Positions 304 through 61,465 of a stretch of DNA of 64,000 nt are shown piece after piece; position 1 is the stretch's first letter, and the number at the start of each line of letters is the position of its first letter. The DNA is taken from contig NZ_VELE01000001.1 in the NCBI RefSeq assembly GCF_007681555.1, forward strand, positions 310,001 through 374,000. The letters run 5' to 3'. The notes below the pieces were generated by a model. That model was not told the DNA's origin, made no database searches, and saw only the letters and a program-made list of their open reading frames with translations. The stretch is from Kocuria salsicia. Lineage in GTDB: Bacteria; Actinomycetota; Actinomycetes; Actinomycetales; Micrococcaceae. The position numbers and the translations under genes were made by a program.

Positions 304-1383
304 ATGACCGATCAGAACCCGGAGTCCACCGTCCACCGGAAGGACGCCGCTCCGCACCCTGACCACGACTCGAAGCCCGAGTCCCCCCACCAGCTCCAGG
401 GCCGGTCCTGGGGGTACATCTTCAAACGCGGCCTGGCCGAGTTCTCGAAGGACGGGTGCACCGACCTCGCGGCTTCCCTGACGTACTTCGCCGTCCTGTC
501 GATCTTCCCGGCGCTGCTCGCGCTCGTGTCCCTGCTGGGCGTCTTCGGACAGGGCGAGGCCACCACCACCGCGATCCTGGACTTCCTGGACCAGTACGCC
601 CCCTCGGCACTGGTGGAGCTGCTCTCCGGCCCCATCTCCCAGCTCACCACGCAGTCGGGGGCAGGGCTGGCACTGGTCGTCGGCATCGTCGGTGCCCTGT
701 GGACCGCCTCCGGCTACACCGGGGCCTTTGCGCGGGCCATGAACCGCATCTACGAAGTCACGGAGGGGCGCCCCTTCTGGAAGCTGAAGCCGGTCATGCT
801 GCTCGTGACCCTCGTGATGGTCCTGATCGTGGCACTGGTGATGATGATGGTGGTGATCTCGGGCGACATCGCACAGACCCTCGGGGACCTCGTGGGCCTG
901 GGCAGCACCGCCGTGACTGTCTGGAACTGGGCCAAGATCCCCGTGGTCATCCTCCTGCTCGTGCTGCTCATCGCGATCCTCTACTACGCCACGCCCAACG
1001 TGAAGCAACCCAAGTTCAAGTGGCTGAGCCCCGGTGCCGCGATTGCCCTGGTGGCCATGGCTGTGGCCGGCCTGGCGTTCGCGTTCTACGTGGCGAACTT
1101 CGCCAAGTACAACGCAACCTACGGCGTGATCGGCTCCGTGATCATCCTGCTGCTGGGACTGTGGATCATGAACAACGTGCTGCTTCTGGGCGCGGAGGTG
1201 GACGCGGAGATCGAGCGCGTCCGCCAGCTGCAGGGCGGCATTCGCGCGGAGCGAACCATCCAGCTTCCCCCGCGCGACATCACCCAGGCCGAGAAGCTGC
1301 AGAAGAAGGAGGAGGAGCTCGAGGCGCAGGGCCGCAAGATCCGGCTGCACACCCAGCACATCGACTACTCCCAGGACTCCTGA
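304..1383 (+). CDS. YihY/BrkB family integral membrane protein
   Basis: A 359-residue protein with a hydrophilic, charged N-terminus (about 45 residues) followed by the YihY/BrkB core. The early segment DLAASLTYFAVLSIFPALLA and the later GASGYT-like element (ALWTASGYTGAFARAMNRIYEV) are typical of the family, as are about six membrane helices ending near residue 300. A charged cytoplasmic tail follows. The family was once called ribonuclease BN; that activity is not supported, and BrkB was linked to serum resistance in Bordetella. The real role is unknown. The ATG follows a GAGAGGAC ribosome-binding site. The gene stands alone, with the mycothiol pair 216 bases downstream. Confidence 0.85.
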   Translation: MTDQNPESTVHRKDAAPHPDHDSKPESPHQLQGRSWGYIFKRGLAEFSKDGCTDLAASLTYFAVLSIFPALLALVSLLGVFGQGEATTTAILDFLDQYAPSALVELLSGPISQLTTQSGAGLALVVGIVGALWTASGYTGAFARAMNRIYEVTEGRPFWKLKPVMLLVTLVMVLIVALVMMMVVISGDIAQTLGDLVGLGSTAVTVWNWAKIPVVILLLVLLIAILYYATPNVKQPKFKWLSPGAAIALVAMAVAGLAFAFYVANFAKYNATYGVIGSVIILLLGLWIMNNVLLLGAEVDAEIERVRQLQGGIRAERTIQLPPRDITQAEKLQKKEEELEAQGRKIRLHTQHIDYSQDS

Positions 1384-1599
1384 GCCGGTTCCGGCACAGC
1401 CTGTTCCTCACCGAGGGGCCCACGCGGTGACCACCGTGCGGGCCCCTCGAGCCTCCCCGGTCTTGCCCTCGGCCGGGGCGCGATCCGCGTCAGGCGCGTT
1501 TTCTCGGTGGGCGAACGACGACGCACGACCGGTGCCCTGCTCGCGGGGCACCACGCATACTGGGAAGGACACAGAATTCGAGTCGACGGAGGCAACCGC

Positions 1600-2697
1600 A
1601 TGCACAAGGTCAAGGGCGTCGTGGTACGCGCCAAGAACGAGCCGGCAACCCTGGAGACCGTCCTGGTCCCGGATCCCGGGCCGGGCGAGGCACTCGTGGA
1701 CGTGCTCACGTGCGGGGTGTGCCAGACGGACCTTCACTACAAGGTAGGCGGCGTGGGGGATGACTTCCCCTACCTCCTGGGCCACGAGGCCGCCGGGGTG
1801 GTCAGCGCGGTGGGTGAAGGCGTCACCGAGGTGGAGGTGGGTGACCACGTGATCCTCAACTGGCGTGCGGTGTGCGGCGAGTGCCGCGCGTGCCGGCGGG
1901 GCGAGCCATGGTACTGCTTCAACACCCACAATGCCACGCAGAAGATGACGCTCGAGGACGGCACCGAGCTGGAGCCCGCACTCGGCATCGGGGCATTCGC
2001 GGAGAAGACTCTGGTGGCGGCCGGCCAGTGCACGAAGATCGAGACCCCGCTGCAGGACGAGCAGTACGCGGCCGTGGGCCTGCTCGGCTGCGGTGTGACG
2101 GCGGGGATCGGTGCAGCGCTGAACACCGGCGCCGTCAAGCGCGGTGAGTCCGTGGCCGTGATCGGCTGCGGCGGCGTGGGGACCGCGGCCGTCGCCGGTG
2201 CCGCTCTCGCCGGTGCGACCACCATCATTGCGGTGGACGTGGACGACGAGAAGCTCGAGACCGCGCAGCGCCTCGGAGCAACTCACGTGATCAACTCCCG
2301 CTCGACGGACGCCGTGGAGGGCATCCGGGAGCTGACCCACGGCAACGGCGCGGACCTCGTCATTGACGCCGTCGGCGTGCCGGACACCTTCATGCAGGCC
2401 TTCCAGGCCCGGGACCTCGCGGGGCGCATGGTCCTCGTGGGCGTGCCCAATCCCGGAACGGTCGCCGAGATCCCCCTGGACGAGGTGTTCTCGCACGGCG
2501 GGTCCATCAAGTCCGCGTGGTACGGGGACACCCTGCCCTCCCGCGACTTCCCGATGCTCGTGGACCAGTACGTGCTGGGCCGCCTGGACCTGGACGCGTT
2601 CGTCTCTGAGCGCATCGGCCTCGCCCAGGTGGACGAGGCGTTCGAGACCATGAAGTCCGGCAAGGTCCTCCGCTCCGTCGTGGAGGTGTCCCGGTGA
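1600..2697 (+). CDS. mscR: S-(hydroxymethyl)mycothiol dehydrogenase (class III type zinc alcohol dehydrogenase)
   Basis: A 365-residue medium-chain zinc alcohol dehydrogenase. It carries the catalytic zinc region ([10 protein letters not shown] near residue 37 and GHEAAGVV), the structural-zinc cysteine cluster [15 protein letters not shown] near residues 90-110, and a Rossmann glycine motif ([12 protein letters not shown]). The protein most resembles the mycothiol-dependent formaldehyde dehydrogenase / nitrosomycothiol reductase of actinobacteria (Rv2259 type), which oxidises the formaldehyde-mycothiol adduct with NAD and can reduce S-nitrosomycothiol. The ATG at 1600 is preceded by GGAGG; an in-frame start at 1507 would add an unlike tail. 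Its stop overlaps the GTG of the next gene (GTGA), so the two are coupled, as for Rv2259/Rv2260. Confidence 0.9.
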
Positions 2698-3377
2698 CTC
2701 GGACACCCGAGATCGTCGTCACCGACCCCCGCGACGGTGTGCGCGTGACCAACTGCGTCACGGAGGGCACCTTCAGCCTTGACGGGCAGACGTGGGACGT
2801 GGAGAACAACGTGTGGGTGGTGGGCAACCAGGCCGAGTGCGTGGTGATCGATCCCGCCCACGACCCCGAGGCCGTGCTCGCGGCAGTGGACGGCCGCACC
2901 GTCACCCACGTGCTGCTCACCCACGGCCACGACGACCACATCAGGGCCGTGCGGGACGTCGTGGAGCAGCTCGACGGCAACCCTCCCGTGCTCATGAGCC
3001 CCGAGGACGTCATGCTGTGGCACGCCGTCCACCCCGAGGGGACCGAACCGGAACCGTTGCACGACGGCCAGGAGCTCACCGCTGGCACCGTGGCCTTCAC
3101 CGTGATCGCCACGCCCGGCCACTCCCCCGGCTCGGTGGTCTTCCACGCCCCCGATCTCGGTGAGCACGGCGTGGTTTTCACCGGCGACACCCTCTTCCAG
3201 GGCGGGCCGGGAGCCACGGGACGCTCCTACTCCGACTTCCCGACGATCATCGACTCGATCGACAAGCGCCTGCTAACGCTGCCGGAGGACACGCTCGTGC
3301 TCCCCGGGCACGGAGACGCAACCACGATCGGCGAGGAGAAGCCCCACCTGGGCGAGTGGATCGCGCGCGGTCACTGA
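2694..3377 (+). CDS. MBL-fold metallo-hydrolase, partner of mycothiol dehydrogenase
   Basis: A 227-residue metallo-beta-lactamase-fold hydrolase of glyoxalase II type. Metal ligands are visible in order: HGHDDH near residue 80, the TPGHSPGS loop, the bridging Asp in [10 protein letters not shown], and the late LPGHGD. The GTG start overlaps the TGA of the dehydrogenase by four bases (GTGA). This pairing is conserved in mycothiol producers. A reasonable inference is that it hydrolyses the S-formylmycothiol product or a related thioester, but the substrate cannot be read from sequence. A long bidirectional terminator follows. Confidence 0.85.
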
Positions 3378-3397
3378 CACGGTCCGGCCTCTGGCCG

Positions 3398-3447
3398 ACG
3401 ACGCCGCCCCGGTGCCTTCCACGGTGAAGGCGCCGGGGCGGCGTCGT
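3398..3447. terminator. Bidirectional 22-bp hairpin between convergent genes
   Basis: Bases 3398-3419 and 3426-3447 pair over 22 bp, with one G-T wobble on the + strand RNA, and a six-base loop. The hairpin lies between the convergent metallo-hydrolase and MFS genes, so it can end transcripts from both sides. Confidence 0.85.
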
Positions 3448-3473
3448 AGTCTCCCCCGGCGGCCGTGCGGAGG

Positions 3474-4763
3474 TCAGATCCTGGGATCGCGGACCGGAGA
3501 GCGGCGCAGCGTGTAGCTGAAGAAGAGCGCCGTGCCCAGAAGGAGCATCGCCGCCGCCACCGGTCCCATGGCCGCGGACATGTAGTCGCGGTGCACGCCG
3601 AGGTAGGCGCAGACAATCAGCCCCACGGCCGAGGAAGCGCTGGAGACCACTGACATCTGGGCGACCAGGCCCAGGAACCCCGTGGTAACGCCCACCTGAC
3701 CAGCGGAACTGTGCAGGCACAGCAGGCTGGGGCCAGAGAAGAGACCCACGAGCAGCAGCACCACCGAGTACCCCAGAGACCCGGAGGGTGCGGAGAGCAG
3801 CATGGATGCCACCAGGGCCCCCGTGCCCGAGAGCACCATCATGTTGGATGCCGTGATGCGGTGCCGGAACCGCACCGCCAAACTCGAACCCACGGCTGCG
3901 CCGAATCCCAGGAGGGCGTAGATGGCACCCATGGTCTCCCCGCTGTCGAGGGACACGGAGTACACGGCCAGGCAGCCCTGCACCGCTCCGAGCAGCGCGC
4001 TGAGCGCCCCGATGCCGTAGAGCAGTCCGTGGCGCAGCCGGAACGTGGTGGAGCGGGGGACGCCCAACGGGGAACGGTCCCGCCACAGCAGGTGGACCGG
4101 CATGTTGGCCTGCGGATAGCGGGACGAACGGTGGGCCACGAAGAACGCGATGGTGACCAGGGACAGCGTGGCGGAGACCTTCAGAACGGAGGACGGGCCA
4201 ATGACCACCGCGAGCAGTCCGGTGAGGGCCGCACCCAGAACGGTGGCGAGAGCCTCGTTGACTGACTCCCGCCGCATGGCCGACGAGAAGGCTTCGAGAC
4301 GGCCCTGTCCCTGAAGGACGGAGGCCCAGCGCAGACGGGCTGCGAGGCCCATGGGCGTCAGGGAGAGGCCCGCAATGAAGAAGGGAACGAAGGCGGAGAC
4401 CGCACCCCACGCGACGGGCACCGTGGAGACGTCCACCAGGGAGAGCTGCCACATGACCCCGCCCTGGATCAGGGCGATCCCGGCCAGGGCCCACTGCCGC
4501 CAGCGGACGTTCGAGAACAGTGCCATGCCCACGGCGCACACCGCCATGCCTAGGCAGAGCGCGGCGGAACTCAGGGCCGCGGCCCATGCCGAGGAAGCGG
4601 ACACCGCAACCCACGTGAGCACCCCGAGCGGAGCCATGACCTGGGGCAACCTCAGCAGCAGGGTGATCGCGCTGAGCTGGCGGTCGCTGCGGACGAGCCG
4701 CTCCCGCGCGCCGGGATCGGGCGGCGCGGAAACGGGCACCTGGGTGCGGGTCGCGGTACTCAC
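3474..4763 (-). CDS. MFS transporter
   Basis: A 429-residue, very hydrophobic protein with about twelve predicted helices and a polar N-terminus of about 30 residues. The early segment AALSSAALCLGMAVCAVGMAL and the two-halves layout with a polar loop near residues 210-230 fit the major facilitator superfamily, most like the bacterial macrolide/drug exporter branch. No substrate motif is decisive. The GTG start at 4763 lies six bases after a TAGGCT box, which predicts a leaderless mRNA and supports this start. The box overlaps the stop codon of sbcC directly upstream. Confidence 0.8.
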   Translation of the reverse strand: MSTATRTQVPVSAPPDPGARERLVRSDRQLSAITLLLRLPQVMAPLGVLTWVAVSASSAWAAALSSAALCLGMAVCAVGMALFSNVRWRQWALAGIALIQGGVMWQLSLVDVSTVPVAWGAVSAFVPFFIAGLSLTPMGLAARLRWASVLQGQGRLEAFSSAMRRESVNEALATVLGAALTGLLAVVIGPSSVLKVSATLSLVTIAFFVAHRSSRYPQANMPVHLLWRDRSPLGVPRSTTFRLRHGLLYGIGALSALLGAVQGCLAVYSVSLDSGETMGAIYALLGFGAAVGSSLAVRFRHRITASNMMVLSGTGALVASMLLSAPSGSLGYSVVLLLVGLFSGPSLLCLHSSAGQVGVTTGFLGLVAQMSVVSSASSAVGLIVCAYLGVHRDYMSAAMGPVAAAMLLLGTALFFSYTLRRSPVRDPRI

Positions 4764-4769
4764 CGTCTC

Positions 4770-4775
4770 AGCCTA
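4770..4775 (-). promoter_or_regulatory. -10 box (TAGGCT) of the MFS gene, leaderless
   Basis: TAGGCT, then GAGACG, then the GTG start: a six-base gap, so transcription should begin at or next to the start codon. Its first three bases are the TAG stop codon of sbcC. Confidence 0.65.
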
Positions 4776-7700
4776 CGTGAGCACCGCAGAGCCGGTCTCG
4801 ACACGCAGGTGGGAACCCCGGGGAGTCTTGGTGACCACCAGCTGGGTCTCGATCCGCTGCTTCATCTCGCTCACGTGGGAGACCACCCCGATCACCCGCC
4901 CACCGCGGCGCAGCCCGTCCAGGGTTTCCAGGACCTGTTCCAGTGTCTGCTCGTCGAGGGAGCCGAAGCCTTCGTCCACGAACAGCGTGTCGATCTCCGT
5001 GCCCCCGGCATCGGCTCGCACGACGTCCGCGAGCGCCAGTGCCAGCGCCAGCGAGGTGAAGAACGACTCACCCCCGGAGAGGGTCTCGGTGCCGCGGCGT
5101 GCTCCGGTCCAGGCGTCCTCAATTTCCAGTCCAAGGCCGGACTTGCCACTGCCCCGGGTCTGGTCGGTGTGCACCAGGGCGAACCGCCCGGACGACATCG
5201 TGGAGAGGTGCTCCGAGGCGACGGCCGCAACGTGTTCAAGCCTCGCGGCCAGAACGAAAGAGGTCAGTGTCATGCGCAGGGAGTTCTCCGAGGTGGTGGC
5301 GGTGGCCACGCCCGCGAGCCCGCTCAGGCGTTCCGCCCGGTCCCGGGCGGCCTGCAACGCCGTTTCACGGGCCGGTGCCTCGCGCGCGTGGGATCGCGCC
5401 TCGACCGTGAGGTCCTCGAGGCCTCCGAGCAGCCGGTTGAGTGCGTCCCTGTGGCGCGCGGCCTCCTCGCACTCGGCCTGAGCGCGTTCACGTGCCTCCG
5501 CCGAAACCTCGTGGCGCTGCTGCTCGGTGAGCCGAGCCGCGCGCTGCATGTCCTGGGTTGCGAGTTCCGCGTCCAGCGCCGCGACCTCGCTGGCGACGCG
5601 TTCGACCCAGTCGGTCACTTCGGTGGCCTCCTCCTCGTCCATGAGGGCCGCGTGGACGTCCACCTCCCTGCTGAAGGGGGACCGCGCGAGCGCACGGTCA
5701 AGGGCTTCCTCCGCCGTGCGTTTCTCGTGCCGGGCTGCGTCCCGCTCGTCCTGCGCGTCGGACCAGCGGGTGGTGAGCTGCACGAGCTCCTCAGCGGCCC
5801 GGACGCAGTCCTGGACGGTCGCGAAAGGCCCGATGGCACGGGCCACGCGCTCCCGTTCCGATGCGCAGCGACCACGTGCCGCCTCCACCCCCGTGCGCAC
5901 ACCCGCCATCTGTGTGGTGGTGTTCCGTTCCTCCGTCTCGAGACGGGTCACGGTGTCGTACACGGTGGCGATTTCCTCCGTGCCGCGCTGCAGTTCCGCG
6001 AGGGCGGACTCGACGGCCTCCTCGGCGAGACGGGCCAGTCGAGCCCGCTCCACGACGTCTGCGAGGTCCTCACCGGCACCGCGCGCCAGGTGTTCCGCGC
6101 TCGTGCGCTGGGCCTGCTGCCAGCGGTGGTGGGCCGCATCGGCGGTGTTCTGCGCCGTCTCCCGATCCTCCCGGGCGCGCTGCAGCATCCCCGGGGTGAC
6201 GTCCTGCTCCTCTTCCCCCGTGGCCGGGCACGGGTGCACCGTGGAACCGCACACGGGGCACGGATCCCCTTCGGAGAGTTCCCGGGCGAGGCTGGAGGCG
6301 GCACCGGCATATCGGAGGGTCTCCAGGGACTCCACCTGGCGGGCCGCTTCACGCCGGGCGGTCTCGGCGGACTCGAACTCTGCGGCCCGCGCGTTCTCCG
6401 TGTCACGGGCCCGGGCATAGTCGCGGCTGGCCTCGACCGCCTCGCGCGCCGCCCGGGCACGCTCCCTCACGAGGCCCTCGTCCTTGACCTGCAGTTCCAG
6501 CTCCTGGCGGGAGTCCTCCCACCGTGCGAGGTCCGCGTGCCGTGCGGTCAGCTCCGCTGTGATCTCCTCGGATCGCAGCTCAAGTGTGCGCAGACTCTCC
6601 TCGTCCCGCTGCAGCGCGGTCTCCTCCTGGGCCAGGAGGCGGGCGCGCTCCGCCGTTCCACGGGCCGCCTCACGAGCCGTCACGGCCGCGTCCCGCAGCT
6701 GCCGGGGCATCTCGGGGGTGCCCTCCAGCTCTCGGACCAGATCGGGCCGGTCGCGCAGGACATCCCGGAGCGAGCGCGCCCCCGCAGAGGTCTCCGTGAG
6801 CGCCGCCCGCACCGCCTCGACCGCGGAGGCAGAATCCGCCGCGCGCCGTCGAGCCCGGATCGCCGATGCCAGGGGCTCCGCCAAGCCCTCGGCCGCCGCG
6901 TGCTCCTCGAGCCGACGTCTCGCGTCCCCGAGGCGCTGCGACTGCGCCCGCAGCTCGGCACGACGCACCGTAAGCCGGTCGAAACGGGCGAGGAGCCCGC
7001 TCAGCACCTCCAGTTCCGTGATCCGCTGCTGAGAAGATGCGTGGCGATCGGCAGCTTCATCACGGGCCGCTACGGCTCCCGCGAGCGCCGATTCGCCATC
7101 GGACACGAGGGCATGCCACCGCTCCGAGAGGCTAGCGGGTCCCTCCGGAGGAGAGGTTTCGCCGCCGCTGACCTCGTCATCACCGCCGTCGTCCGGGGAA
7201 TCCTCCTCGCTCGCACTGCGCACTCCGTCTGCTGAGTCAGCCGGTGACGGGACGGATCCCCTTGCGGGCAGACCGGTCCGCGGATCCTGCTCGTTGAGTC
7301 GGGACAGGCGCTCTCCCACGCGGGAGAGCAGCTCCTCGGAGCGTTCCCACTCGAGCTGGGCCGAGGCCGCGTCGGTTTTGGCTGCGTCCGCCCGGGCCTT
7401 CAGCTCCTCCTGCACGTCCGCGTAGACATCCGTGCCGAACAGTGTCTCCAGGAGTTCCTCCCGCTCCCGCGATCCGGCCTGGAGGAACTGGGCGAACTTT
7501 CCCTGGGGCAGCATCATCACCTGGGTGAACTGCTCCCGGTTGAGGCCCACGGCGTGGTGGATGGCCTGGCCCACGTCGTCCGGGCGGTGCCCCCGGTCAG
7601 CCCACTGCCCCTCCGTGTACTCGCGTAGCAACACCGTGGCGTGCCGGTCGCGCCATCCGGAGGTCGCCCGCGTGGAGGGTTCTCGCCACGCCGGGGTCCG

Positions 7701-55133: not shown

Positions 55134-56609
55134 TCAGGATGCGGGGCGCGCGTGCGCGGTGATGGCGCCCGCGGGATCGACGACACCGGTGTCCCTGCCG
55201 AGCAGGTCCGTCACCGTCTCACGGCGCACGATCTCGCGCGTGGCACCGTCCGGTGCCACAGACACGATTCCAGGGCGCGGCAGCCAGTTGTAGTTGCTCG
55301 ACAGCGCCCAGCAGTAGGCGCCAGTCACGGGGACGACGAGCAGGTCCCCCGCCGCGACGTCGCCCGGGAGGTAGACGTCCTTGACGACGACGTCCCCCGA
55401 CTCGCAGTGCTTGCCCACCACGCGGCTGAGCACTGGGGCCTCGTGGGAGACCCTGTTGCCGAGCACCGCGGTGTAGTCCGCGTCGTAGAGCACGGGACGG
55501 GCGTTGTCGCTCATGCCGCCGTCCACGGAGATGTAGCGCCGCTGCACGCCCGGGGCCACGGTCACGGTCTTGACCGTGCCCACCGTGTACACGGTGCAGC
55601 CGGACGGACCGGCGATGTAGCGCCCCGGCTCGAAGGAAAGGTGTGGTGCGGGCAGCTCGGAGGCTTCCAGCGACTCGGCCAGCAGGGGGGCGAGGTCACC
55701 CGCGATGGCCGCTACCTCGCGCGGTGCGTCCTCGGCGGTGTAGGCCACTCCGTGGCCACCGCCCAGGTCCACCTCGGGCAGGACGACGTCCCAGCGGGCC
55801 GCCACTGCCTCTCGCAGCGCGAGCACGCGCTCGGCCGCCTGACCGAAACCCTCGGCGGCGAAGATCTGGGAGCCGATGTGGCAGTGCAGCCCACGCAGGT
55901 CGAGGGCGTCGGAGGCCTCCAGGCACGCCGCCACGGCCGTCAGCGCTGGAGAGTCCTCTCCGTCCCGCGCTGGGTTCAGGGAGAGGCCGAACTTCTGGTC
56001 CTCGTGGGCCGTGGCAATGAACTCGTGCGTGGAGGCGTGCACGCCCGGGGTCACACGGATCATCACCGGCGCGCGGGTGCCCCGGTCACGGGCGAGTCCT
56101 GAGAGCAGCTCGATCTCCGCGAGGGAGTCGACGACGATGCGCCCCACGCCCACGCGCAGGGCCAGCTCCAACTCTGCGGCCGACTTGTTGTTGCCGTGCA
56201 GCGCGATGCGTGCGGGATCGACCCCCGCGGCGAGCGCGACGGCCAGCTCACCCCCGGAGGCGGTGTCCACATTGAGCCCCTCCTCGGTGGCCCAGCCGAC
56301 CACGGCGGTGGTGAGCAGTGCCTTGGAGGCGTAGAAGACGGCCACCTCGATGCCGAGGGGGCGCAGCGCATCCTCGAACGCCTCGCGGAACGCTCGGGCG
56401 CGCTCACGGAAGGTGCGCTCGTCGAGCACGTAGCTGGGCGTCCCGTACTGCCGCGCGAGCTCCGTGACGGGCACACCGGAGACGCACACGCACCCGTCCG
56501 CGTCACGGGTGTACTGGCGCGTGAAGACCAGTGGGTCTAGCTCCGCCGGGTCAGCGGGGACTGCCAGCCAGGCCGGTGCGAGGGGGTGGGTTTCAAAGGT
56601 TTCGGACAC
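55134..56609 (-). CDS. lysA: Diaminopimelate decarboxylase
   Basis: A 491-residue PLP enzyme, last step of lysine synthesis and a drain on the peptidoglycan precursor pool. PLP Lys is in VAVFYASKALLT (near residue 95), HCHIGSQIF near 248, and the Gly-rich GGGHGVAY near 300. The active-site Cys region is KHCESGDVVVKD. GTG start three bases after argS. Usual length (about 450), slightly longer by an N-terminal extension of about 20 residues. Confidence 0.95.
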   Translation of the reverse strand: MSETFETHPLAPAWLAVPADPAELDPLVFTRQYTRDADGCVCVSGVPVTELARQYGTPSYVLDERTFRERARAFREAFEDALRPLGIEVAVFYASKALLTTAVVGWATEEGLNVDTASGGELAVALAAGVDPARIALHGNNKSAAELELALRVGVGRIVVDSLAEIELLSGLARDRGTRAPVMIRVTPGVHASTHEFIATAHEDQKFGLSLNPARDGEDSPALTAVAACLEASDALDLRGLHCHIGSQIFAAEGFGQAAERVLALREAVAARWDVVLPEVDLGGGHGVAYTAEDAPREVAAIAGDLAPLLAESLEASELPAPHLSFEPGRYIAGPSGCTVYTVGTVKTVTVAPGVQRRYISVDGGMSDNARPVLYDADYTAVLGNRVSHEAPVLSRVVGKHCESGDVVVKDVYLPGDVAAGDLLVVPVTGAYCWALSSNYNWLPRPGIVSVAPDGATREIVRRETVTDLLGRDTGVVDPAGAITAHARPAS

Positions 56610-56612
56610 GGG

Positions 56613-58283
56613 TCACATCCTCTCGGGGGCGCTCACGCCGAGCAGGTCCAGGCCGTTGGCGAGGACCTGGCGCACGGCGTCGTTGAGCCACAGTCGACTG
56701 TGGTGGATCGGGGCCACGGGGTCCTCGCTCTGCGGCGTGACCCGGCACGCGTCGTACCAGCGGTGGTAGGCACCGGCCAGCGCCTCGAGGTGGCGGGCCA
56801 CGCGGTGCGGCTCGCGGAACTGCGCGGCCTGCGCGACGACGGACGGGTACTGTCCCAGCGCCGCGAGCAGGTCCGCCTCGCGCGGGTGCTCCAGCAGCGC
56901 GGCGTCGAACAAGGACTGCCCCTGCTCGTCCGTGCGCGAGACACCGGCGGCCTCGGCGTTGCGGCTCACCGCGCACGTGCGGGCGTGGGCGTACTGCACG
57001 TAGAAGACGGGGTTCTCGTTCGAGCGCTTCGTGAGAACGTCGAGGTCGATGTCGATGTTGGAGTCCACGGAGAAGCGGGTCAGCGAGTAGCGCGCGGCGT
57101 CCACGCCCACGACCTCCACGAGGTCCTCCATGGTCACCACGGTGCCCGCGCGCTTGGACATCCGCACGGCTTGGCCGTCGCGCACCAGGTTGACCATCTG
57201 CCCGATCAGCACCTCGACGGCGTCCGGGGAGTCCCCGAGGGCCGCCGCCGCGGCCTTGAGCCGGGCCACGTAGCCGTGGTGGTCCGCACCCAGCATGTAG
57301 ATGCACAGGTCCGCACCACGATCCCGCTTGTTCTTGAAGTATGCGATGTCCCCGGCGATGTACGCGGCGTTGCCGTCCGACTTGATGACCACGCGATCCT
57401 TGTCGTCCCCGTGGTCCGTGGAGCGCAGCCACCATGCGCCGTCCTTGAAGTAGAGGGAGCCGGAGGTCCGCAGCTGCTCCAGCAGGGTCTCCACCTGCCC
57501 GCCCTCGAAGAGCGAGTTCTCGTGGAAGAAGACGTCGAAGTCCACCCCGAACTCGTGCAGCGAGGACTTGATTTGCTCGAACATCAGCTCCACACCGGCC
57601 GCCCGGAAGACCTCCTGGGGGTCCTCCGCCTCCAGCGCGTCCGGGTGCAGCGCGAGCACTTGGTCCGCGATCTCCGAGATGTACTGGCCGCCGTATCCGT
57701 CCTCCGGCGCGGCCTCGCCGCGGGCGCGGGCCAGCAGGGAGCGGGCGAAGCGATCGATCTGATTGCCGTGGTCATTGAAGTAGTACTCGCGCACCACGTT
57801 CGCGCCCTGCGCGCCCAGGATCCGGGCGAGGGAGTCCCCCACCGCGGCCCAGCGGGTGCCGCCCAGGTGGATGGGGCCGGTGGGGTTGGCGGAGACGAAC
57901 TCCAGGTTGATGGTGGTGCCCTTCAGTGTCTCCCCCGTGCCGAAGGCCGCGCCCTGCTCCACGATCGACTGGGCGAGCTCACCGGCCGCCGCGGCGTCGA
58001 GCGTGATGTTGAGGAACCCCGGGCCCGCGATGTCCACGGTCTTCACACCGGGCACCTGCGCGAGGCGCTCGGAGAGGATCTGTGCGACGTCCCGAGGGCT
58101 GCGCCCCACCTTCTTTGCCACCTGCATGGCCACCGTGGTGGCCCAGTCGCCGTGGTCACGGTTCTTCGGGCGCTCCACCTTCGCCTCGGGCAGGTCGACG
58201 CCGTCCACGACGGTGAGTTCACCGGCGGCCACGGCGTCCTGCAGGCATGCGGAGACGGCGGAGGAAAGTTCTTCAGGAGTCAC
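56613..58283 (-). CDS. argS: Arginyl-tRNA synthetase
   Basis: A 556-residue class I synthetase. Class I HIGH-like motif is in PTGPIHLGG (134-142) and the KMSK-like motif is MSKRAG near 340. The N-terminal Add-1 domain reads tRNA-Arg's D-loop, and the C-terminal DALR domain follows. I set the start at GTG 58283 ([15 protein letters not shown]) because TPEEL-type starts are usual and a TACACT box ends six bases before. A start at 58310 would add nine residues upstream of the promoter. tRNA-Arg(CCG) lies 205 bases away on the other strand. Confidence 0.94.
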
Positions 58284-58289
58284 TGTGAC

Positions 58290-58295
58290 AGTGTA
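58290..58295 (-). promoter_or_regulatory. -10 box (TACACT) of argS, leaderless
   Basis: TACACT, GTCACA, GTG at 58283: six-base gap. This decides the argS start. Confidence 0.65.
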
Positions 58296-58432
58296 GCGGG
58301 GCAGGTGCATGCGGACCGATTCGCCGACCGTCACGCGCAGCGGTTCCCGCGGCCACGGACCGGTACGGTTCACACGCTCGCGGGCCCGTGCGGGCCCGGT
58401 TTGGTGCGGATTCGTGCACCGAGTGCACCTGG

Positions 58433-58438
58433 TAGTAT
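58433..58438 (+). promoter_or_regulatory. -10 box (TAGTAT) of tRNA-Arg
   Basis: TAGTAT 50 bases before the tRNA, with TTCGTG (58411-58416) sixteen bases upstream as a possible -35. Confidence 0.45.
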
Positions 58439-58487
58439 CGTCGAGTCGTCGTTGCAGCCCGGATGAAACGGGTGGCGCACCTGACAC

Positions 58488-58560
58488 GCCCGCGTAGCTC
58501 AGTGGATAGAGCGTCTGCCTCCGGAGCAGAAGGTCGTAGGTTCGAATCCTGTCGCGGGCA
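58488..58560 (+). tRNA. tRNA-Arg (anticodon CCG)
   Basis: A complete 73-base tRNA. Acceptor GCCCGCG pairs with CGCGGGC, discriminator A at 58560; anticodon stem TCTGC/GCAGA with loop CTCCGGA, anticodon CCG, reading CGG. T-loop GGTTCGAATCC is standard. CCA is not encoded. The 3' part (58527-58561) recurs at 60951-60985 as an attachment-site duplicate. Confidence 0.97.
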
Positions 58561-58561
58561 C
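58527..58561 (+). repeat. attL-like repeat: 3' end of tRNA-Arg
   Basis: 35 bases covering the anticodon 3' arm to the base after the discriminator. Matches 60951-60985 in 32 of 35 positions (differences at 58534, 58545, 58548). The copy here stays part of a working tRNA. Confidence 0.8.
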
Positions 58562-59160
58562 AAGGTAGGGCCCCTGATCATGAGAAACGCCGATCAGGGG
58601 CCCTTTTGGTGCCCGGAGTGAGTAGTGGCCAAGTACGCGTTGAGGTACGCAGTACGCAACGCGTCGCCGCCTGGATGCGGGTTGCCCAAGGGACGATGTA
58701 CTTCAGGCGTAGAGTGAACTTGAAGATAGTCACATCGTTAAATGATTGCGACTGTTCCCCGGGGCGGCCATCGCTTCAAATACAGGCCTTTTCTCGGAGG
58801 TTTGTTCGTCAGAGAGCCGCGGAGGAAGGACAGTCCGTGGCGATGCGGATGCCATGGAACGTTATCGTCCGTACCCACTTGCTCTTGCGCGCCTCACATG
58901 GCGACCAACGTCCTGCCCGGCACGAGACGCTCCAGGAGCGTGTTGAGTTGGGGTGTTCCGTCGAGGCTGCTCCCCACCCTGTGCTTGCTGATCGCAAATC
59001 CCTACGTGCAGGCCATTCACGCTAGCGGGCCCCGTTGGTTGTACCTAGTGGCGCTGCAGTCGATCTGGACCGGGTTGATCCGCGTGACCCCGCTTATCCG
59101 CGGAGGGGTGCGCGAGCGAGCCGAGCGCCGTCTATTTGTCCGTGATGACAGGAGTTTGTC
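58562..59160. other. Left part of the island, no clear gene
   Basis: A terminator hairpin is at 58568-58603. Beyond it there are only short open frames (about 140 residues each at 58606-59025 and 58742-59164) in different frames, with no motif I recognise. The DNA is lower in GC than the flanks and looks like decayed island sequence. Confidence 0.5.
58568..58607 (+). terminator. Terminator of tRNA-Arg
   Basis: GGGCCCCTGATC and GATCAGGGGCCC form a 12-bp perfect stem, followed by TTTT at 58604-58607. Classic intrinsic terminator, seven bases after the tRNA. Confidence 0.9.
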
Positions 59161-59793
59161 ATGAAATCGCACATCAATCGCAAGGTTTTCTTCTCCATGA
59201 TGGTAGGGATCGCGGTGGCGGTCGTGGCCGCCTTATTGGGGGCTGCGGCCGAGATCATCGGGTTGCTCGGCTGGATCTGTGCCGGCCTCACGTTCCTGTT
59301 CTGGGCGTGGGCCCGGTATTGGCGGGCCGATGCCCGCACCACGCGCGCTATCGCCCGGGAGGAAGGAAAGGCCCGGCGAGTTGTGGACGCGCTGATCATT
59401 GGTGCCACCGTGGTCAGTCTCGTAGCCGTCGTGTTCGGCCTGCTGCGATCGCGGCAGACCGACGTGGTCGGTACCCTGTCGGGGGTCCTGGCACTGGTCT
59501 CGGTGGTGGTTTCCTGGGCGCTGATCAACACGGTCTACGCGTTCAAGCTAGCAAGGTTGTACTACCATGATGAGGAACACGAGTTCACTTTCGAGCAACG
59601 ACAGGACCCGACCTACAGCGACTTCGCTTTCGTGTCCTTCATGGTGGGGATGACCTACACCTTCAACGCCAAACTGTCCTCGACCGAGATGCGTCGAGTG
59701 GCGTTTGGGTACTCCCTGCTGGCCTACGCCTTCGGCACGTTCGTCATCGCTGTGGCCCTTAACCTCGTGACCAGCCTCGGGCAATCCGGGTAG
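59161..59793 (+). CDS. DUF1345 family membrane protein
   Basis: A 210-residue protein with about five helices (about 10-55, 75-95, 103-120, 155-170, 180-203). The segment WALINTVYAFKLARLYYHD and the later PTYSDFAFVSFMVGMTYTFNA are diagnostic of DUF1345, a family of unknown function. ATG is preceded by AGGAG. It is the only intact gene in the remnant island. It seems to be in full working order; no frameshift is visible. Confidence 0.85.
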   Translation: MKSHINRKVFFSMMVGIAVAVVAALLGAAAEIIGLLGWICAGLTFLFWAWARYWRADARTTRAIAREEGKARRVVDALIIGATVVSLVAVVFGLLRSRQTDVVGTLSGVLALVSVVVSWALINTVYAFKLARLYYHDEEHEFTFEQRQDPTYSDFAFVSFMVGMTYTFNAKLSSTEMRRVAFGYSLLAYAFGTFVIAVALNLVTSLGQSG

Positions 59794-60117
59794 GGGTGCG
59801 GTCGACACCGCACAGGTCCTAATGGCCCAGGCCCTCTTAGAACCTCCACCCCCACACTGCGGGACTCCCTGCGGACCTGCGGAGCCTTGGCTGCCCCAAT
59901 TCCACACAGTAGTGGACTCAGTTGCGTGCATCTTCGTGTCATTGTCTTTGTCATAAGTCGAGTCAGGCCACTCGCCGCGACAACTGTGTGGCGGATCCCC
60001 CCGTTCTTGTTCATTTCGACCGTTGTTTGCGGTCCGCCATAAACGTTCGTTTGCGGGAGGGGGTGGAAAACGAACCGGTGACAGTTTCGGTTTAGGCCGC
60101 GAGTGTGAGCGGCTCGG
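59794..60117. other. Non-coding island segment before the IS remnant
   Basis: No gene. Contains two short direct repeats (CGTTGTTTGCGG at 60021 and CGTTCGTTTGCGGG at 60044) and, from about 60077, the outer end of the IS remnant (GGTGACAG). Confidence 0.4.
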
Positions 60118-60542
60118 CTAGCGGGCTTCGAACTCGATGGGCGTCAACCCGCCGAGTCTGTCCTGGGCTGGTTGACGGCGAGCTTCGCGGTCATCCGGTC
60201 CGGGATCACGTATCCGACGACGTGGTTGGAGAACACGTCTTTGATCGCGCAACAGCAGAGCGAGCCGGTTCGGTTCGTCGCCACAGAAGACCCGCTGGAG
60301 GTGGCCCTCGAACACCGGCGGGCCCGCCGCGCCTCCTCCCGCAGGCACCGGTACCGGAATGGAGGGTCACCATCGCGGGCAGCACGCAGTGCGTGGATGC
60401 GGTGCGCGCCCAGGAGGTCCGCGTCTCGGACCGGGGAGCGGCGCCACCGATAGCAGGGCTGCCTGGGAAGCTTGAAAACCCGGCACGACACCGTCACGGG
60501 TATCCCCGCTTCGGCGAGCTCGGCAACGAGCGGGTATGTCAT
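60118..60542 (-). pseudogene. IS3 OrfB transposase, internally deleted and frameshifted
   Basis: The start MTYPLVAELAEAGIPV and DPPFRYRCLREEA match the N-terminal part of IS3-type OrfB. It then jumps to the CAIKDVFSNHVVGYVIPDRM core segment, and after TAKLAVNQ jumps again, with a frame change near 60150, to the extreme C-terminal LTPIEFEAR. The regions carrying the first Asp, and the last Asp and Glu, of the DDE triad are absent or separated, so it is catalytically dead. Confidence 0.8.
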
Positions 60543-60853
60543 TGTGGGCAGCTGCCGAGGCGCAGATTCGCTGGCGACAGATACGCCGCAGCCCTCCTGA
60601 GCACCTCGTTGTCCTGCGCGAGGAGGCGGATCCGCTTCTTCAGCTCCCGAGCCTCCGCCGCGTGTGCCGCAGCGTGACCAGGCCGATTTCCTTCTGCACC
60701 GTCGGCCTGACGGAGCCAGTTCTGCAGGGTCGCTTCGCTGATACCGAAGTCGGTAGCGATCTGTTTAATGGTGTCGCCACTCTCACCACTCTCACGGCGA
60801 CGAGCGACCGCGATGACGTCCTCACGGAACTCTCCGGGATAAGGACCAGCCAT
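60539..60853 (-). CDS. IS3-family OrfA (helix-turn-helix) protein
   Basis: A 104-residue protein with MAGPYPGEFREDVIAVARR, a helix-turn-helix of the IS3 OrfA type (IKQIATDFGISEATLQNWLRQAD), and a leucine-zipper-like coiled coil (RIRLLAQDNEVLRRAAAYLS). It is full length, so only OrfB is broken. It overlaps OrfB's start by four bases (ATGA). The ATG at 60853 is preferred to 60889. Confidence 0.75.
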   Translation of the reverse strand: MAGPYPGEFREDVIAVARRRESGESGDTIKQIATDFGISEATLQNWLRQADGAEGNRPGHAAAHAAEARELKKRIRLLAQDNEVLRRAAAYLSPANLRLGSCPQ

Positions 60854-60950
60854 GATGACATCCTCCCCGCCAGCGCCTCTCAACGCCAACGATCAGTTGA
60901 CACCTATTCGTTCCCCACGCCCCTATTACCCGCTGCTGGTACCGACGACG

Positions 60951-60985
60951 CAGAAGGCCGTAGGTTCGCATTCTGTCGCGGGCAC
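60951..60985 (+). repeat. attR-like duplicate of the tRNA-Arg 3' end
   Basis: 35 bases that match 58527-58561 with three mismatches; includes a T-arm like GGTTCGCATTC and the acceptor CGCGGGCAC. There is no 5' half, so it is not a tRNA gene. It marks the right edge of the island. Confidence 0.8.
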
Positions 60986-61084
60986 TTTCCATGCCCTCTT
61001 CACCCCGCCCGCGCACACGAACCTCCGCGCTGTGCGGGCGCCGCCCTTCGGGAGCGCAGGACCCCGTCGTCTCAGAGCAGTGTC

Positions 61085-61465
61085 TCAGCGCCGTTCGCGC
61101 CGCTGCTCCCGCGTCCGCAGGTTCGGGTGCAGCTGCAGCGGGTCGTACGCGCTGACGACGTCGTCCCCCACGTACTGCTCCTCCAGCAGCGCGTCCTCCG
61201 CCACCGGCTGCGGTGCGGCCGTGCGCCGCAGCACCACTCCCACGATCGTGAGGACTCCCCCGACCCCCAGGGTCCCGAAACCCAGGAGCACCATCGTCCA
61301 GCCCCTGGCGTTCAGCGGCTCTCCCCCGTGGTCGGCGGCCGCCCGGCCCAGGGCCACGAGCCCCTCGGGAAGCGTGAAGCAGCACACGAAGAGAAGGATC
61401 AGCCCCACCGCTGTCACGACGGAGGTGAGTCGTTGTCTGCGATGGGGCTGATTCACTGGGATCAC
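61085..61465 (-). CDS. Small membrane protein of unknown function
   Basis: A 126-residue protein with two hydrophobic helices (about 12-38 and 55-82) and a polar C-terminal tail with an Arg-rich end (REQRRERR). No family recognised. The GTG start overlaps the ABC ATPase stop (GTGA), so it is co-transcribed with the importer and could be an accessory subunit; this is inference. Confidence 0.6.
   Translation of the reverse strand: MIPVNQPHRRQRLTSVVTAVGLILLFVCCFTLPEGLVALGRAAADHGGEPLNARGWTMVLLGFGTLGVGGVLTIVGVVLRRTAAPQPVAEDALLEEQYVGDDVVSAYDPLQLHPNLRTREQRRERR

Follow-up and report, generated by a model that had tools for sequence, protein, structure and literature searches.

As judged from its sequence, the DNA at 58562-60985 of the window (the whole stretch of 64,000 nucleotides analysed here, from a Kocuria genome) is a tRNA-integrated island. 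The explanation that best accounts for the whole, and that we consider very probable, is that an element integrated at tRNA-Arg(CCG), that its integrase was lost, that the remnant was exchanged by homologous recombination and that it is a member of a family marked by its left arm. A first-pass annotation of this DNA had proposed a tRNA-integrated element that subsequently decayed. Integration is confirmed by empty sites in relatives, while decay is incomplete, a DUF1345 gene being intact and under purifying selection; moreover, the strongly indicated exchange with a second Kocuria genome (G006) by recombination in the flanks and a 140-bp end present in four further genomes go beyond that proposal.

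The two att cores of the island (Table 1) are identical at 33 of 36 nt, so that the repeat of the tRNA 3' end, initially described as 32/35, stands with its three mismatches and is one base longer. A pattern merging both copies, with ≤3 mismatches allowed, occurs twice in the window (expected 0.00 from 100 shuffles). The tRNA core, again at ≤3 mismatches, is also found twice in the whole 3.06-Mb draft genome to which the window's own locus (hereafter W) belongs and where the window occupies 310001-374000 of contig 11, with 0 occurrences of the reversed-pattern control; the repeat is thus not one that recurs at many unrelated places, which had been named as the finding that would speak against an island. 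The three mismatches had been ascribed to drift, and they need not all be: in four of the 12 relatives of empty type (G005, G023, G016, G017) the tRNA itself has the C seen at core position 9, and in the other 8 it has T. Part of the core mismatches may represent the displaced resident allele rather than drift. The lower GC content noticed between the copies is real (0.624 for 58562-60949, against a mean of 0.693 and sd of 0.025 for windows of equal length) but not unique, because 7 of 617 windows, overlapping ones counted, are as low, and the lowest of the 569 non-overlapping ones has 0.619.

Table 1. Features of the island and its surroundings (positions in the window)
Feature	Position	Strand	Evidence
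Tract common with G006: argS N-terminus, tRNA, island, right flank	57980..61093		94-100% identity by segment; left edge approximate
Intact tRNA-Arg(CCG), integration target	58488..58561	+	ARAGORN
Left att core, 3' 36 nt of tRNA-Arg(CCG), from anticodon stem 3' strand to gene end	58526..58561	+	Direct repeat; same start base in the G639 element
Left arm: terminator hairpin (58567-58604) and three TACGC repeats (58634, 58646, 58653)	58562..58704	+	Hairpin computed; repeats by eye
Stretch without recognisable genes, 456 bp	58705..59160		Pfam and PHROG scans
DUF1345 membrane-protein gene, intact cargo	59161..59793	+	PF07077, E=1.1e-46; dN 0.015, dS 0.099 against G006
IS3-family element, shortened; ends GGGGGTGGAAAACGAACC and ..TTCGTTCCCCACGCCC	60059..60922	-	Aligned with copies in L012-L015
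Gap from IS end to right core, 27 bp	60923..60949		Sequence
Right att core, displaced tRNA 3' end, 33/36	60950..60985	+	Direct repeat
Native flank downstream of tRNA	60986..61084		TTTCCATGCCCTC here; its counterpart TTTTCATGCCCT adjoins the tRNA 3' end in G005, G023 and G001

We compared the tRNA-Arg(CCG) locus in 26 relatives of the same genus. G005, G023 and G001 have one tRNA 3' end only, immediately adjoined by TTTTCATGCCCT, the sequence lying 3' of the second core in W; TTTCCATGCCCTC of W and TTTTCATGCCCTC of G006, both 3' of the second core, correspond to it. The joint was found at 0-1 mismatches in 20 nt in these 3 of the 26 relatives, and with 4 mismatches in a fourth, G018. The alignment of relatives proposed in the first-pass annotation therefore yielded the empty sites it had looked for, and the opposite outcome, the same 2.4 kb in all relatives, was not observed. 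Given these empty sites, the DNA between the core copies is an insertion for which the 3' end of the tRNA served as target. In 12 of the 26 relatives orf126, the next gene, begins 86-225 bp 3' of the tRNA; the distance is 1676 bp in G006 and 2524 bp in W, 441 bp in G018 and 1.5-5.4 kb in nine other relatives, and no orf126 was found in G020, G004 and G007. Many of the matches at larger distances are distant homologues (30-51% identical), and six Kocuria loci (L047, L048, L049, L055, L056, L057) have 1.5-3.1 kb from tRNA-Arg(CCG) to such a homologue. By exact matches of 2-kb stretches, G005 is K. varians NBRC 15358 and G011 is K. rhizophila TA68; the neighbouring ABC ATPase of W is 94% identical to that of the former and 91% to that of the latter.

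We also examined what the island contains. The 456-bp stretch following the left arm gave no match for one ORF in Pfam and for three ORFs in PHROG. The DUF1345 gene announced by the first-pass annotation is supported by its Pfam match, and between W and G006 it has 7 nonsynonymous differences in 467.5 sites and 15 synonymous ones in 162.5; therefore, the gene is under purifying selection. Its nearest other copy, in G022, lies on a different contig from the tRNA-Arg of that genome (dN 0.125, dS 0.474). Plasmid matches to DUF1345 amounted to 25 records, all below 60% identity (40% for the best among the matches listed), and PADLOC returned no match for DUF1345 or for the ORF of G021 described below. 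A spacer of 265 bp leads to the IS3-family element, where the broken transposase reported earlier was recovered as two fragments on the minus strand (60144-60542 and 60539-60889); the ends of the element were set by alignment to the copies in L012-L015, those in L014 and L015 being ~1.28 kb long. By eye, no target duplication flanks the element of W. As none is evident in the other IS copies either, its absence in W does not prove an IS-mediated deletion, and we rejected this argument.

G006 carries the same island at ~95% identity. High identity continues for ~500 bp to the left of the tRNA, into argS, and for 108 bp to the right, beyond which it is ~84% and ~78%, respectively. By segment, W and G006 differ at 456 of 2799 positions in the left outside region (55181-57979; 16.3%), at 15 of 508 in 57980-58487 (3.0%), at 0 of 74 in the tRNA, at 38/598, 22/633, 12/265 and 2/33 in the island segments (3.5-6.4%), at 1 of 12 in the right-core remnant (11/12 identical) and at 1 of 108 in 60986-61093 (0.9%); right of the tract the mismatches are 81/372 (21.8%) and then 317/2534 (12.5%). 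Consistently, dS is 0.093 for argS codons 1-101 and 0.099 for DUF1345, against 0.286 for argS codons 102-435. The right edge of the tract, at 61093, is sharp, while the left edge is blurred because 56981-57980 is of intermediate identity. Indeed, the best single tract in a scan starts at 56971 and not at 57980, with 5.6% mismatch inside and 16.2% outside, and its likelihood gain was 111 (maximum of 45 in 300 block permutations). In G006, 60094-60973 is missing, and at the deletion joint ~33 nt of the left end of the IS meet the final 11-12 nt of the core.

The relationships of the flanking genes differ from those of the tract. In orf126, the ABC gene and the permease, W is closest to G005, and G006 to G011 (G016 being equal in the permease), while the C-terminal part of argS places W at the same distance from G005, G006 and G023 (89.1-89.4%), with G023 as the nearest relative of G006. 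The ABC+permease tree groups W with G005 (98/97; 9 of 10 sequences, G023 having been dropped for coverage), as do, with moderate support, the orf126 tree (74.2/82) and, with weak support, the tree of the rest of argS (32.1/46). On the contrary, the argS-tract tree groups W with G006 and G023 (92.4/95). The flanks share the phylogeny of the island against the rest of the genome, with the reservations that the left edge is blurred and that W falls outside the G006+G023 pair (86.3/86), which fits poorly as G023 is an empty site. For this last reason the donor of the tract is not pinned down; the trees and identities suggest the lineage of the window as its recipient. Since the copies in W and G006 both lack an integrase and have the same IS, the island was integrase-less before the exchange, unless the gene was lost twice.

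No integrase was found among the island ORFs scanned (three scans, of six, four and seven ORFs), and the nearest PF00589 match on the contig of W (E≤1e-8) is ~126 kb from the locus, in line with the first report of none. In none of the 27 Kocuria genomes did the tRNA-bearing contig, short in some cases, have a PF00589 match closer than ~45 kb to the tRNA at the same threshold, and G020 had none in its genome. Serine recombinases (PF00239), searched in Kocuria only, were not found beside the tRNA among the matches listed, the nearest listed being ~37 kb away.

To look for a parent element, we searched with the left arm in 395 genomes of the family, 396 of the order (overlapping samples) and 47 of the family of G715. 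Alignments show a 140-bp end, conserved in sequence, at the same tRNA gene in six genomes from three families of one order. Besides W and G006, the 143-bp arm lies directly after tRNA-Arg(CCG), aligned over 134-140 bp, in a further Kocuria, G021 (75%, 134 bp), and in G639 (79%), G715 (77%) and G461 (69%), which belong to two other families. Matches were obtained in 8 of the 395 family genomes (over most of the arm in W, G006 and G021), in 5 of the 396 order genomes and in 10 of the 47, where full-length ones were confined to G715 and G639. Hairpin-only matches near other tRNAs (G073, G141, G157, G370) were set aside, as were two in G416, neither with a tRNA found nearby and the one in L069 inside unrelated reading frames, and one in G718 (E=1.2e-4), with no tRNA nearby. 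A profile of the six arms, run against 204 sequences (2.56 Mb), gave no copy beyond the six known genomes.

Beyond the arm, the cargo differs between loci. G021 and G715 have in common, at 95.5% identity, a stretch of 1130 bp that runs from the sixth base after the tRNA across the arm and an Abi-like ORF (291 and 298 aa, respectively); this ORF has no Pfam match and owes its Abi likeness to one plasmid annotation. Apart from this stretch, the two loci as fetched match only once more, at 70% over 832 bp. In G021 (locus L046) the ORF is accompanied by an AAA ATPase (PF13175) and, by translation, an IS3-like transposase. The G639 element is 9.65 kb long, and its second core (35/36), located 9645 bp beyond the tRNA, starts at the same base as the right core of W; the element carries, by translation, a ROK-type regulator, an aminotransferase, an antiporter and a kinase, and the scan added DUF1206 and a DDE_Tnp_1 match just below the cut-off. 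An HTH_17 fragment, which we take to be excisionase-like, adjoins this right core (L186, 9.5-9.85 kb after the tRNA); its frame starts beyond the core, crosses it and ends inside the element, and the HTH domain is without its first part. In G461 (L188), the first 4 kb after the tRNA, between the arm and argS, hold genes of arsenic type, whose translations resemble ArsC, ArsR and a transporter. Neither an integrase-bearing copy of the arm nor an ancestor with integration or transfer genes was found in the 395, 396 (overlapping) and 47 genomes, so that the parent islands with an integrase at this site, proposed at the outset as worth seeking, did not appear in the left-arm searches. No integrase was found at the six arm-bearing loci or in their vicinity, with or without cargo in common, and its loss is inferred rather than seen; of the recombinase loss by deletion claimed in the first-pass annotation, the absence held for the scanned ORFs, and the deletion itself would be a deduction.

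Different explanations can be considered for these observations. Short tRNA fragments occur in genomes, and a duplication of the tRNA 3' end arisen by chance or slippage, with ordinary chromosome in between, could resemble an island; we regard this as having a negligible chance, given the empty sites with the same joint, the same core start in G639 and the lack of a further such copy in the genome. W and G006 are of one genus, so vertical inheritance from their common ancestor, with no transfer and with losses in the other species, could explain the shared island, and losses by deletion are common. This is very improbable, considering that the island, which is partly non-coding, differs by 3.5-6.4% whereas adjacent DNA, coding for the most part, shows differences of 12.5-22%, that dS is threefold lower in the tract, and that tree topologies conflict. 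It is also quite unlikely that the same element integrated independently in W and G006 by its own integrase, with the integrase then lost twice. The site is a recurrent target, as six genomes have the same end at this tRNA, but site-specific integration does not bring the DNA that is only 3.0% mismatched into argS and 0.9% over 108 bp past the right core, and both genomes have the IS at the same place. The distribution of these differences strongly indicates an exchange of the remnant, IS kept and integrase already gone, between two Kocuria lineages, by homologous recombination in argS and the downstream flank.

A further possibility concerns the origin of the elements rather than the exchange: those bearing the arm may never have had their own integrase and may have been moved in trans, by the integrase of another element or of a phage recognising arm and core. 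We think this rather unlikely, although several observations go in its direction. PF00589 is found within 100 kb of 0/6 arm-bearing loci, the arm is conserved across families, the cargo is of different kinds (DUF1345, Abi-like plus ATPase, sugar/antiporter genes, arsenic genes), and the 95.5% identity of G021 and G715 over 1130 bp from the tRNA boundary speaks for recent movement. Tentatively, one could picture a family of small integrase-less elements, defined by the 140-bp end with TACGC repeats and the 36-bp core at tRNA-Arg(CCG), spread over several bacterial families of one order, moved in trans by some recombinase and changeable in cargo. On the other side, losses are easy to imagine, since transposase-type genes (some by translation only) are present in four loci (W, G021, G639, G715) and a right core was recognised only in W and G639, besides the G006 remnant. 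Moreover, the HTH_17 fragment at the G639 right core points to a former recombination module there, and no helper was found; the sample is one of six loci.

Taken together, we favour the integration of an element that would later have lost its integrase. The element would have inserted site-specifically at the 3' end of tRNA-Arg(CCG), 58562-60985 being what remains of it. Because the 36-bp core runs from the anticodon stem to the gene end, integration would have restored the tRNA and left the resident 3' end at the other border, a displacement visible in the empty sites. The type of site makes a tyrosine integrase the most likely enzyme. The loss of the integrase and of the greater part of the element probably went along with the IS3 insertion and a deletion at the right end, where so little DNA is left between IS and core, while DUF1345 would have been retained under selection. 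After the exchange, G006 would have lost the body of the IS, together with most of its right core, through a further deletion. The island is therefore best seen as a remnant and not as an active island, an integrase gene being usual in islands but not required of a remnant. Its borders and a single useful gene were retained, the recombination module would have been lost, and further movement would have come by homologous recombination.

On the sequence evidence, the best reading of its class would be that of decayed or cis-mobilizable-type islands, for which mobilization in trans is possible. Cis-mobilizable elements (CIMEs) are described, in PMC5704250, as having lost integration and transfer genes and kept attL and attR. 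The Kocuria island likewise keeps its att repeats and a site-specific target, with no integrase or transfer gene recognised; it differs in its diverged right core (33/36 in W, mostly deleted in G006), and the ICE or IME from which a CIME derives by loss of integration and transfer genes did not appear in the left-arm searches. Other systems offer partial parallels. The flanks of the tRNA-borne HPI of E. coli were exchanged with the island by homologous recombination (PMC2606025), so that in both cases the flanks follow the history of the island and not that of the host; the HPI, however, has an integrase gene and spread within one species, whereas the Kocuria island is 2.4 kb long, has no integrase found and would have moved between species of Kocuria. 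The ssrA islands of Dehalococcoides, 15 without an integration module and 16 sisters with one (a serine recombinase; PMC3146451), are also bounded by repeats of the 3' end of an RNA gene, but sisters with a module were found there and none for the Kocuria island. The small mobile genomic island H47 of E. coli is similarly small, repeat-bounded and without its own site-specific recombinase; its excision was shown (PMC5426353), while the Kocuria island is known from sequence. Among the matches listed for this integration site or genus, the titles and first lines of abstracts do not mention the island, and the accessible part of PMC13388538 has nothing on the tRNA-Arg(CCG) site.

The island is a compact case that can be dated against its own flanks, and it indicates that chromosomal recombination can carry an element across a species border even if the element has no recombinase of its own. 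Moreover, an end conserved at one tRNA gene in three families provides a handle toward a helper integrase or an intact parent. Patterns for the arm and for the core had 0 matches in IMG/VR, as did the Abi-like protein, and the arm joined to the Abi start gave 0 matches in plasmids and phages. Twenty plasmid records matched the Abi-like protein, all below 60% identity; in four contexts considered by annotation, a recombinase gene was near one only (K. flava, ~4 kb), with no link to the arm. The core matched 397 phage records, 281 of them over ≥80% of its length, and the 30 listed of the 397 fall in tRNA genes, hypothetical genes or unannotated records. Finally, the core matched 38 plasmid records. 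The match on pACHL01 was rejected as an att site, being a full tRNA-Arg within a tRNA array; this plasmid of Pseudarthrobacter chlorophenolicus (L162) carries, at 429-7586, an array of 39 tRNA genes plus tmRNA.
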